Positions 17,059-48,852 of a DNA stretch of 64,000 bases are shown piece by piece. Under the pieces are notes generated by a model that was not told the DNA's origin, did no database searches, and saw only the letters and a program-made list of their open reading frames with translations. Position numbers and translations under genes: made by a program. Source of the DNA: Metabacillus endolithicus (GTDB lineage Bacteria > Bacillota > Bacilli > Bacillales > Bacillaceae); NCBI RefSeq assembly GCF_023078335.1, contig NZ_CP095550.1:4384001-4448000 (forward strand), read 5' to 3'. Numbering within the stretch: position 1 is the first letter of the stretch; each line of letters starts with the position of its first letter.

Positions 17059-17166
17059 TAACATTATGGTACTATTAAATTAAAGATCCTAGGGATCAAA
17101 CAAAATTAGTTACCACAGTTATTTTATTGTTAAACATTATAAATAGACATGTACAGGATGATGGGG

Positions 17167-19256
17167 ATGAACGATTTTTTAAACTTAAAAAAAGACTTTA
17201 ATAACGACAAAAAGCTATCAGTAATTGAGTCGTTTATTTTTCAAATTATTTTAAAGCATATCAATGATTTGATATTTATAATGAAGGTTGAAATTGATGG
17301 TTCATTTACTTATTTATTTGTGAATGAAATGGGGAAAATAAGAGCAAAGCTTGACAATAATTATGCGGGGAAGACCTTTTACGACCTCCAACCTGCAAAG
17401 ATTGCAGATGAATTAAATGAGAAATATACATTTGTGAAAAATCATAAAATGGCAACCACATTTCAAGATAGAGTAAAAGTTGATGAAAACCATTTTGCAT
17501 ATGGTGAAACCATTTTAACACCAATAAAAAATGATGATGCTGATGTTATTTATATTATTGGTGTAACTAGAGATATTTCAGAAAGGGTTCATGAAAAGAC
17601 CTTGTTAATAGAAAGTCAACAAATGTATAAATCACTTGTTGATTTCAATATGGATGCAGTTTTATCAGTTGATAATGATGGAGTAATCTATTCGTTTAAT
17701 CATTCTGCTAAAAGAATACTCAAGGTAGACGATGAACATATTAATGTGAGCGTTTTCTCGCTATTTGAATACAGCTATCATCTAGAAATACAGCATGCAT
17801 TTCAACGATCTATTAATGGAGAATCTTCTGAAGGAGAAGCGGTTCTTATTCAAAAGCAAATCAGATTAAATGTTCATTATAAAACAGTGCCTATTATGAT
17901 AAATGAAACAGTAAGTGGAATCTTTTTTATATTAAGGGATATCACAGAGAAGGTAAAGCATGCGGAGCTAATTGAGCACCTTGCATATCATGATTCTCTT
18001 ACTGGATTGTATAATCGAAGTGCGTTAAAAAAGGACTTGCCTAAAGTAATGGAGATTTCTAAACAAAATCAAACACCTCTGGCTTTAATGTTTATGGATT
18101 TAGACCGCTTTAAAATGTTAAATGATACTCTTGGACATAATAATGGTGACCAAATCTTAATAGAGGTTGGGAAAAGGCTGTTAAGTATAAACTCTCCTGA
18201 ATTTAATGTATACCGTCATGGAGGAGATGAATTCATCATTGTTTTGCCATCATCTAATGTAGAAGTGGCAAGCAAGGTTGCCACACAAATTCTGGATATG
18301 TTTAAAGACCCTTTTTCTATCAATGATAACTTATACTATGTTTCCATTAGCATAGGTATAAGTATATATCCCGATGATTGTCAGGATGAAGACTCATTAA
18401 TCATGAATGCGGATAAAGCACTATATGTTGTAAAGCAAAGAAGCAGGGCACAATATCAACTTTATCATAAGGGTATGGATAAAAATACCAACGAGTTATT
18501 ATCTATGGAAACTGCTCTAAGAAGGTCTATAGGAAACAATGAATTAAAATTGCATTATCAACCACAAGTTGACTTGCATACAAATGAGATCGTAAGCTAT
18601 GAAGTATTATTGAGATGGGAAAATTCACACTTAGGAAGTGTTTCGCCTGCTAAATTTGTGCCCATTGCCGAGGAGTCAGGATTGATTATTTCTATAGGCG
18701 AATGGGTAATTGAGGAAGCCTGCAAACAGCTTATGCAATGGAAAAAGAAGGTTTAGGTGAAATTGTACTAGCCATAAATCTGTCAGCTAAGCAATTTGAA
18801 CAACCTTATTTAGTAGAAAAAATAAAGAGCTTATTTAGTGAGTATTATATAAATCCTAATCAAATTGAATTTGAGATTACAGAAGGTGCCTTACAAAATG
18901 TAGATGAAGCATTGCATATTATGAGTAGGTTAAAAAAAATTGGAGTAGCTATTTCAATTGATGATTTTGGCACAGGATATTCTTCCCTAATGTATTTAAA
19001 ACAATTTCCTATTGACTCCTTAAAAATTGACCAATCATTTATTCGAGAAGTGTTAACCGATCAAAAAGATGAGGCAATCGTCAAAACAATCCTTTCTATC
19101 GCTGAAAATTTAGGGAAAATCTTAGTAGTAGCAGAAGGAATTGAAACGTTGGAGCAGTTGAATTTTTTAAAAACGCTAAACTGTCAAAAGGGACAAGGTT
19201 TTTACTTTAGCAAACCAATCCCACCCGTAGAAATCACCAATAGGCTGAAGGATTAG
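17167..19256 (+). pseudogene. PAS-GGDEF-EAL cyclic-di-GMP turnover protein, frameshifted
   Basis: Residues about 25-255 contain two PAS-type sensor segments (VTRDISERV and LRDITEKV mark their ends). The GGDEF domain (YHDSLTGLYNRSALKK ... RHGGDEFIIV) has an intact active site. The EAL domain begins YEVLLRW (ExLxR form) and continues with SIDDFGTGYSSLMYL and VVAEGIETLEQL. The frame is lost in an A5 run at 18742-18746; one more A joins LMQWKK to EGLGEIVLAINLSAKQF. The intact enzyme would have about 696 residues and could both make and degrade cyclic di-GMP. No membrane segment. The start is uncertain: ATG 17167 fits AGGATG best. Confidence 0.9.
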
Positions 19257-38396: not shown

Positions 38397-38555
38397 TGTT
38401 ACTGGTGATTTGACAGTTATAGGAAAAAAGGTTATTATAGAATTTAGTGCTTGAAAACCTTTGATATTTTAGTGTTGTGTGAGTGATCAAATTAGCAAAA
38501 AGTAGATGTTAATCAATTCACACTGGCGCGGACTAGGAGCCGTAAGGACGAAAGA

Positions 38556-38590
38556 GAGGTAGGCTTTCGTTGTTTTGAAAATTCAGCAAT
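38556..38590 (+). other. Unassigned hairpin downstream of modB
   Basis: ACGAAAG and CTTTCGT form a 7-bp stem around AGAGGTAGG, followed by GTTGTTTTG. It lies in a locally GC-richer stretch (about 38520-38575, including GGCGCGGACTAGG) unlike the AT-rich flanks. It may be the end of a small RNA or of the modB transcript; I cannot name it. Confidence 0.3.
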
Positions 38591-46528: not shown

Positions 46529-46612
46529 CTTTATATGAGGAAAGTTTCAGAATATAATGATTTATCTTGAAAAGATAGCCAAATTACATTATAAGTAGTA
46601 TGATAGTACTAC

Positions 46613-46639
46613 TAAATTTTTAGACAGAATTGCCGAAAT
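46613..46639 (+). promoter_or_regulatory. Sigma-D type promoter of the chemoreceptor
   Basis: TAAA, 15 bp, GCCGAAAT: exact -35 and 7 of 8 at -10 against the Bacillus motility sigma factor consensus. The riboswitch starts about 15 bp further on. Confidence 0.75.
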
Positions 46640-46654
46640 TATTTGTATATAATA

Positions 46655-46800
46655 TAAAAATGGGCAAACCATTTGAAAAAATGGGACGCAAAACTAAAGG
46701 GGCTTATCATCTTATGCCAGCCAGTTGCAGATATGATTAGCATTGAATTTGTAAGTGAGCTGTCCTTATTTTTATCATTTGGGCAGTTTTATTATTTTAC
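46655..46800 (+). promoter_or_regulatory. Cyclic-di-GMP-I (GEMM) riboswitch with terminator platform
   Basis: The aptamer core shows the GEMM-I landmarks in order: GGGCAAACC, a GAAA-type tetraloop context (TTTGAAAAAATGG), GGGACGCAAAAC, AAAGGGGC, TTATGCCAGCC and AGTTGCAG. It spans about 46655-46735. Downstream, CTGTCC (46760) and GGGCAG (46781) form a hairpin followed by TTTTATTATTTT, an intrinsic terminator before the chemoreceptor start at 46840. Binding of cyclic di-GMP should therefore set read-through; whether it is an on or off switch needs folding of the competing helices. Confidence 0.9.
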
Positions 46801-46839
46801 ACAGAGAGTAATAGAGGCGAGAAAGGGAGAAAGAACATC

Positions 46840-48852
46840 ATGAAAATCCGTCATGTTTTAAAGAATAATGTATTAAAAGGTTTTGACAGAAATCTCACGA
46901 TTAGAAAAAAATTAATCATTGCCTTCGCATGTATTTTATTAGTACCAAGTCTTGCTATAGGATTTATTTCTTATCAATCTGCAAAATCTGAATTACAAGA
47001 TAGCATGCTTCAAACAGCTAAGGAAAGTGTGCAACTAATTGATTCCTCTATGAATTCACAGCTAATTCCTATAGAAAAGGACATTGAATATTTTGCTCAG
47101 ACAGCAAAAACGGCTAATGCAAAAATTGATATCGAGGAAATTTCGAAAATTAAATTGAAATTTAATCAATATATTGAAACAAAACCTGGAGCACAAGCGA
47201 TTTATATTGGAACTGATACGGGTGAAATGATTGTTTCACCAACACTTCAACTTCCTGATGATTATGACCCGCGTGATCGTCCTTGGTATACGTTGGCAAT
47301 GGAGAATAAAGGAGAAGTTGTTATTACAGATCCGTATATCGATGCTAATACAAATGAAACATCAGTAACGTTTGCTAAAGTTTTAAATGATGGTTCAGGT
47401 GTAGTGGCTGTTGATGTGAACTTAAATGTACTAAAAGATATGATAAGTGTAGTGAAGGTTGGGGCAGAGAGGTACTACGTAACAATTGTTGATGAAACTC
47501 AAACATACTTAATTCATCCTTCTAAGCAAGGTGAAAAGGTAACAGGTGATTGGGTAGGAAATTTATTTAAAAGTAATACTGGTGAATTTTCCTATACTAT
47601 AGATGGTAAAGCGAAGGAAATGGATTTTATTACAAATGAACTAACAGGCTGGAAGATTGCTGGTACGATGTATACTAGTGAAATCTCAGAAGCCGCTCGA
47701 GGAATATTTTTAAAAACATTAGCTGTAGTACTAGTATCCTCTATTCTCGGAGCTATCGTTATTTTTGTTATTATACGTTCTATTTTACAACCAATTCGTA
47801 TGTTAGTTGCTTCTTCAGAAAAAATTGCTAATGGAGATTTAGCGGTTGATATTAACATTAGTTCTAATGATGAAGTAGGACAATTGTCCAAGAGCTTTAA
47901 CAAAATGGTCGAAAATTTACGTGCAGTGGTTGTAAGTCTTCAAACAGCATCAGAAAGAGTGAGTTCCTCTTCTGAAGAGTTGATTGCTAGTGCAGACCAA
48001 TCGACAGCTGGAACTAAACAAGTAACAGAATCAATCCAACAGGTAGCTAGTGGAGCCGAAAGCCAAACACTTAAAATTGATGCAAATAATGCTGCATTAG
48101 ATGAAGTACTACAAGGAATTCTAAGGATTTCATCTAGCTCATCAAATGTTTCTGATTTAGCACAAGCAACTGTAAGTGAGGCAGAAGTTGGAGGGAAATT
48201 TGTTAAAGATAGCTTGGAGCAAATGAAGTTTATTCATGCCTCCGTGACAGAATCAAATAAAGTCATTCAATCATTATCCAACAGATCACAGGAAATCGGA
48301 AAGATCCTAGATGCCATTTCTGAAATTGCTAATCAAACAAATTTACTTGCATTAAATGCCGCAATTGAGGCAGCAAGAGCTGGTGAACATGGAAAAGGAT
48401 TTGCAGTAGTAGCAGATGAAGTGCGCAAATTAGCAGAACAATCTCAACAATCAGCTGGTCAGATTTCTACACTAATTTCATCTATACAGCAAGACACAAA
48501 TCATTCCGTACAGGTAATGAGTGAGGTATCTAAAAATGCAGAGCAGGGTTTATCAATATCAACAGAAACATCTGAAAAATTTGATTCGATATTGAATAGA
48601 ATGAACACTATGACTCCGCAAATTGAAGAGGTTTCAGCAACTGTACAGCAAATAACAGCAGCTATTCAAGAAGTTACAGCATCAGCCAATGAGCTTGCTA
48701 TTATTGCAAAAGAAAGTTCAGCAACATCTGAAGAAGTAGCGGCTACAACTGAGCAACAACTTGCTTCAATGGAGGAAATCACAGCAGCCTCAAAAGCTTT
48801 AACTGGAATGGCTGAAGAACTTCAATCAATTATTGATCGCTTTAAAGTATAA
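46840..48852 (+). CDS. Methyl-accepting chemotaxis protein (dCache-HAMP-MA)
   Basis: 670 residues. Membrane segment 1 is about residues 24-44, a dCache sensor domain about 45-275 ([18 protein letters not shown] is the Cache signature), membrane segment 2 about 287-308, HAMP about 309-362 and the signalling domain 380-670 with tip [16 protein letters not shown]. It reports an outside ligand, often an amino or organic acid, to CheA through CheW/CheV. The AGAAAGGGAGAAAG region precedes the ATG. It is controlled by a sigma-D type promoter and a c-di-GMP riboswitch. Confidence 0.95.

Follow-up and report, generated by a model that had tools for sequence, protein, structure and literature searches.

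The locus described here raises the question of how production of a chemoreceptor is controlled, and whether c-di-GMP and the motility sigma factor SigD both take part in it. The leader and its receptor gene sit in the 5.3-Mb genome of Metabacillus endolithicus, and we analysed them within a stretch of 64,000 nucleotides, hereafter the window. The original prediction placed a SigD promoter, a c-di-GMP-I aptamer and an intrinsic terminator before a chemoreceptor gene, all within about 230 bp. This order holds for a SigD-like box, the aptamer, a hairpin and the receptor gene, and a further promoter stands in front of them. The features are as follows, with the basis of each:

46576..46604, + strand: sigma-A-type promoter TAGCCA-N17-TATGAT, likely the main promoter (hexamers recognisable in 13/13 orthologous leaders)
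46613..46639, + strand: SigD-like box TAAA-N15-GCCGAAAT, a possible second promoter (matrix score 14.4, 3/2000 shuffles)
46653..46732, + strand: c-di-GMP-I (GEMM-I) riboswitch aptamer (RF01051, 66.7 bits, cut-off 35, E 7.3e-11)
46669..46689, + strand: 5′ hairpin of the aptamer, its GAAA loop and the next bases, proposed to pair with the arm and loop of the terminator (duplex energies, three genomes; 1/1000 platform shuffles)
46757..46798, + strand: intrinsic-terminator-like hairpin with a 9-bp stem, a 15-nt loop and a T-rich tail (sequence fold; conservation in three genomes)
46823..46829, + strand: ribosome-binding site AAGGGAG (read from the sequence)
46840..48852, + strand: chemoreceptor gene of 670 aa with dCache_1, HAMP and MCPsignal domains (domain matches)

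The gene is indeed that of a methyl-accepting chemotaxis protein, as its matches to an MCP signalling domain (PF00015, 165.8 bits), a HAMP domain (PF00672) and an extracellular sensor (PF02743) show. The leader is a further example of a known arrangement, that of riboswitch-controlled chemoreceptor genes; its SigD element is doubtful. We think it probable that the leader acts as a c-di-GMP-I riboswitch by transcription attenuation, with a sigma-A start near 46611 and in the OFF direction.

The aptamer itself is secure. A covariance-model search confirmed the GEMM-I core that had been read from the letters, at nearly twice the curated cut-off, and the aptamers of the two closest genomes score 64.7 and 68.7 bits. 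In the aptamer alignment a G at 46663, an A at 46690 and a C at the 3′ position are present, which we take to be the positions that contact c-di-GMP (G20, A47 and C92 in Vc2 numbering). The alignment also retains a GAAA loop at 46675-46678 and has the letters CUUAU in place of the consensus CUAAg; presumably these are the tetraloop and its receptor. Unlike the identity of the aptamer, the response of the leader to c-di-GMP and the direction of that response are matters that we infer. At least one c-di-GMP-I aptamer was found in 21/21 genomes of the genus that were searched, its own included, and the latter holds nine, with scores of 66.6-86.5 bits.

Several other observations were made in the genome and the window. 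One aptamer of the genome (L004, C1:1884124-1884211, − strand) precedes a gene for an EAL-domain, phosphodiesterase-type protein, which is followed after about 210 bp by a chemoreceptor gene. L064, in genome G053, and L132, in the genome studied here, are orthologous chemoreceptors of the dCache type (72% identity over 451 aa) that differ in their leaders: a c-di-GMP-I aptamer but no SigD box is present before L064, and a SigD box but none of the genome's nine aptamers before L132. The window also contains a match to the small RNA BsrC (38498-38583, − strand, 70.7 bits, cut-off 38) and two open frames with GGDEF matches (17143-18753, + strand, and 754-1758, − strand).

Before this receptor the aptamer was found in three genomes, namely its own and two whose sensor regions are 97 and 98% identical. 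A decaying aptamer that has ceased to regulate the receptor would be in keeping with several features: the window aptamer is second from the bottom among the nine of its genome, its tetraloop receptor is altered, and among the orthologues nine have no match and one, in G071 (L034, 59% identical), has nothing but a sub-threshold c-di-GMP-I-GGC match (48.5 bits, cut-off 59), which lies directly behind the same sigma-A-type promoter. However, across the three genomes only 2/71 columns of the aptamer core and 1/42 of the terminator vary, against 6/24 in the linker, and the key G, A and C have been retained. We regard decay as unlikely. No clear terminator was seen by eye in the L034 leader. A tree of 13 orthologues and 5 outgroup rows left the deep forks unsettled, so that one gain of the aptamer followed by losses and two separate gains are indistinguishable.

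Upstream of the aptamer lies a conserved sigma-A-type promoter, whose hexamers in the window agree with TTGACA/TATAAT at 9/12 positions. An ungapped comparison of orthologous leaders found TWKYMW-N17-TAWDAT in 13/13. L010 (M. niabensis) and L011 (M. halosaccharovorans) are orthologous loci, and L027 and L026, from genomes of the genus, have the same leaders. The promoter hexamers average 1.50 bits compared with 0.93 over all 115 columns, a figure to which the −10 contributes as the anchor, the block having been found and anchored on the −10 word TAGTA--AT. The −35 columns and a CTA downstream played no part in this anchoring. Here, the first position of the −35 is T in 13/13 leaders, C and A occupy its last two positions in 12/13 each, and CTA lies just downstream of the −10 in 13/13. 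Nine of the 13 promoter-bearing orthologues gave no riboswitch match with an E value of 1 or less, in a search that covered L023-L035 (L035, truncated and with its leader missing, was not used). Transcription would start at about 46611, giving a leader of 229 nt in which the aptamer spans about +43 to +122. We also noted a CodY-like box that precedes the −10 anchor by 53 nt, scored against an assumed CodY consensus. It has 12/15 letters in five of the 13 leaders and 11 in two more; shuffles of the five leaders with 12 letters reach 12 in 25-36/200, and we set CodY control aside as unproven.

The sigma-A-type promoter ends 8 bp upstream of the SigD-like box, from which SigD might transcribe the leader, alone or together with sigma-A, placing the receptor under SigD and the riboswitch. 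The start would be at about 46646 and would fall about 7 nt before the aptamer. The box, TAAATTTTTAGACAGAATTGCCGAAAT at 46613-46639, is the single pattern match in the window, and 8/100 whole-window shuffles contain one. Compared with the consensus TAAA-N15-GCCGATAT, as given in PMC5200910, it has one −10 mismatch, T to A, which makes the GATA core GAAA. Eleven of the 12 letters and the spacing of 15 are found in G000 and G067. To score the box we built a weight matrix from 15 boxes picked by their likeness to the published consensus, 13 of them from chemoreceptor upstream stretches of the genus and the other two from before an ORF that precedes a FlgM-like ORF and before an amidase-like gene (names by reading). 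The window box lies inside the range of its source boxes (12.3-19.3), and its score was reached in only 3/2000 shuffles of the 167-nt intergenic stretch, so that it appears to be no plain chance match. Moreover, the genome has a SigD gene and further chemoreceptor genes with SigD boxes, four sister orthologues (L025-L028) carry AACGATAG or AACGATGG at the same offset with CGAT kept, and two other genera offer a convincing combination of SigD box and GEMM-I in front of a different gene.

Against SigD stands, first, the position of the mismatch. T at −10 position 6 is present in 15/15 matrix boxes, a count that the selection of boxes favours. A fairer comparison is with 37 other chemoreceptor upstream stretches of the genome, with start codons set by script and a few of them fragments: 6 combine TAAA with a single mismatch, which in 6/6 falls at −10 position 1. 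(The 37 derive from 42 chemoreceptor-domain rows; the five dropped were that of the window's gene, an extra row next to 3120385 and three weak ones, of which two lie in the same frame as a stronger row.) TAAA is itself altered in G057, one of the three aptamer-bearing genomes, where AAAA (N15) or CAAA (N16) replaces it. The 10 more distant orthologous leaders have no SigD box (best matrix scores 2.5-6.2), and the CGAT-bearing sisters have TGAA, AGGA or ATGG as their −35, the one that was scored, in G063, reaching 2.95. The box columns, at 0.61 bits, are below the mean of the leader block. Lastly, the strict pattern TAAA-N14-16-GCCGANAW occurs at 14 places in the genome versus 24 for the backward control and gives no signal alone. 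Transcription by SigD is therefore a possibility that we consider doubtful, and the promoter is not the exact one originally claimed. The same applies to the proposal that the receptor belongs to the motility regulon under feedback from c-di-GMP. The SigD gene and 20 GGDEF matches in this organism make the idea possible, and the riboswitch and the receptor are real, but the SigD promoter on which it rests is unproven.

We return to the preferred reading, attenuation from a sigma-A start, and to the hairpin between aptamer and gene. Its stem arms lie at 46757-46765 and 46781-46789 and are followed by the tail TTTTATTATTTT. As an intrinsic terminator, which is how it was first described, it has the 9-bp stem and the T-rich tail, but the 15-nt loop is long and the T run is interrupted. 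It is missing from a simple terminator scan because that scan allows loops of 3-8 only. Positions 46669-46689, in the 5′ part of the aptamer, can pair with 46756-46795 (terminator arm, loop and tail) in a duplex of -17.7 kcal/mol, an energy reached by 1/1000 shuffles of the platform and 4/1000 of the aptamer segment. The same duplex has -17.7, -18.1 and -17.7 kcal/mol in the three close genomes that bear the aptamer, which are near-identical and too alike for covariation. From this potential pairing between terminator and aptamer we predict an OFF switch. Sigma-A RNA polymerase would start near 46611. At low c-di-GMP the 5′ hairpin of the aptamer would open and, by pairing with the terminator's left arm and loop, allow readthrough into the receptor gene. 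At high c-di-GMP the ligand would keep the aptamer folded, the terminator would form and no receptor would be made.

Folding calculations bear on this scheme in both directions. The RNA 46646-46800, on which the decision to terminate would be taken, adopts the alternative pairing as its minimum fold when unconstrained (-33.3 kcal/mol), with terminator pairs at a probability of 0.06-0.07, whereas with the aptamer pairs enforced (-28.8 kcal/mol) the terminator forms, and both results favour attenuation in the OFF direction. For transcript ends of 46760-46840 the unconstrained fold is more stable than the enforced one by 4.4-9.9 kcal/mol, the free structure having been inspected for some of these ends. 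Folds of whole leaders disagree, and this counts against the scheme. The minimum fold of the leader 46646-46839, with no ligand, holds both the 5′ hairpin and the terminator, with a terminator-pair probability of 0.75-0.81; for 46611-46839 it is 0.22-0.24, and in the leaders of G067 and G057 it is 0.02 and 0.60. Further points against are the off-consensus tetraloop receptor, the anchoring of the sigma-A block on −10 words, and structure probing of the Bc1-mcpE leader, which gave the opposite result. Taken together, we treat the pairing of the terminator arm with the 5′ hairpin as a supported prediction from modelled structures.

The opposite direction, in which c-di-GMP blocks termination as in the cap-gene switch Bc2, has precedents close at hand: Bc2 of B. 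thuringiensis is a class I ON switch (PMC6366702), and the Bc1-mcpE terminators unfold with ligand in SHAPE data (PMC11218506). In the window, however, the strand that the terminator arm and loop compete for is the aptamer's own 5′ hairpin, so ligand should free the terminator, and class I switches of C. difficile are described as uniformly OFF (PMC6200980). We judge an ON switch to be unlikely. We also surveyed the platforms of 38 aptamer loci of the genus, finding a terminator in 22 and none in 12, with the core missed by the search pattern in 4. The best complement was the 3′ strand of the aptamer in 6/22 terminator platforms (reached by at most 7/60 shuffles). It was the 5′ hairpin in the window platform (3/60 shuffles) and may be so in L009 (5/60); in L064 it is not significantly so (12/60). 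The survey allows no firm statement on the genus.

Riboswitches before chemoreceptor genes are already in print, in PMC11218506 and PMC6366702, the latter mentioning one before a chemoreceptor of B. anthracis. The closest in layout is the Bc1-mcpE leader of B. thuringiensis (B. cereus group), which is 267 nt long with a sigma-70-type promoter and an aptamer at +48 to +132 (PMC11218506). It shares with the window a c-di-GMP-I aptamer in a chemoreceptor leader, this type of promoter and intrinsic termination, and its aptamer begins at +48 compared with about +43. The likeness is one of leader layout, as Bc1 has two terminators with a Zur site between them, whereas the window has one long-loop terminator predicted to pair with the 5′ hairpin. 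According to the same paper, the Bc1-mcpE terminators form without c-di-GMP in SHAPE-MaP, and expression in vivo hardly responds. Cd1, of the flgB operon of Clostridioides difficile, is likewise a class I, motility-related riboswitch with a terminator, and is OFF, a direction shown in Cd1 and predicted in the window. However, Cd1 controls an operon that encodes SigD, as described in PMC6366702, whereas in the window any action of SigD would be confined to a point upstream of the riboswitch.

Lastly, a strict pattern for a SigD box plus GEMM module matched 2/80 genomes of the family and 31/397 of the order (32 matches). Rfam models, run on 12 of the 32 order-wide matches, identified a c-di-GMP-I or -GGC aptamer in 4; the match in the window had a scan of its own, and the other 19 look like chance by eye. 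The order-wide scan (397 genomes) led to a secreted glycosidase-like protein, with a signal-like start by eye, which has no Pfam or NCBIfam match and is remotely similar to a 'putative GH97' of solved structure (E 1.4e-11). Relatives occur in 88/397 genomes of the order. In genus g26 the strict pattern was found in 3/14 genomes, and the protein-led search found more because many boxes start with A. The loci concerned are:

L104, L105, L106 (G142, G440, G203) and L107 (G119); L151-L153; ten of L159-L171: SigD box immediately followed by a c-di-GMP-I or GGC-type aptamer, then a secreted glycosidase-like gene

Among the best 30 of the 88 loci, 28 have a GEMM core by pattern search, and 12 of these 28 have a SigD box of at least 12 bits no more than 100 nt upstream, each box being reached by 0-2/200 shuffles. 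L161, whose aptamer was found by Rfam, also has a box, making 13/30 loci examined, and these are all 3 matched g46 genomes and all 10 matched g26 genomes. The other 17 of the best 30 have no SigD box, and 16 of them have the aptamer core. An Rfam aptamer is present in 20/20 of the loci that were run. TAAA is intact in 11/13 boxes and CGATA in 13/13, with a −35/−10 spacing of 15-16, in a search by our own matrix, which favours GATA. The boxes sit at nearly fixed distances upstream of the core edge (43 or 60 nt; 56 in L166), and their spacer letters vary. These SigD boxes before GEMM-I aptamers in g26 and g46 look real, as judged by sequence, and in the portion of the open-licence literature available to us we saw no description of a c-di-GMP riboswitch driven by SigD. 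The window leader resembles them in having a −35/−10 pair just before a c-di-GMP-I aptamer, but theirs has a complete CGATA core at a nearly fixed position before a different gene, and the core in the window is broken. The relative of the glycosidase-like gene in the genome studied here (L003) has an aptamer without a SigD box.

A joint reading, which we offer tentatively and think improbable as a whole, is that a young SigD promoter was added in three close Metabacillus genomes before a sigma-A-driven riboswitch receptor, and that SigD plus GEMM-I arose separately before the glycosidase-like gene in two genera. If so, one receptor would be set by two sigma factors and c-di-GMP, and a logic gate of the form 'made when motile, stopped when c-di-GMP rises' would be a recurring one. 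The more general point is this AND/NOT logic, in which a c-di-GMP riboswitch lies behind a promoter for a motility sigma factor; the sequence support for it is good in two other genera. Should the switch of Metabacillus endolithicus behave as we predict, the set of stimuli that this Bacillus relative can sense would be subject to c-di-GMP, in addition to whether or not it swims.
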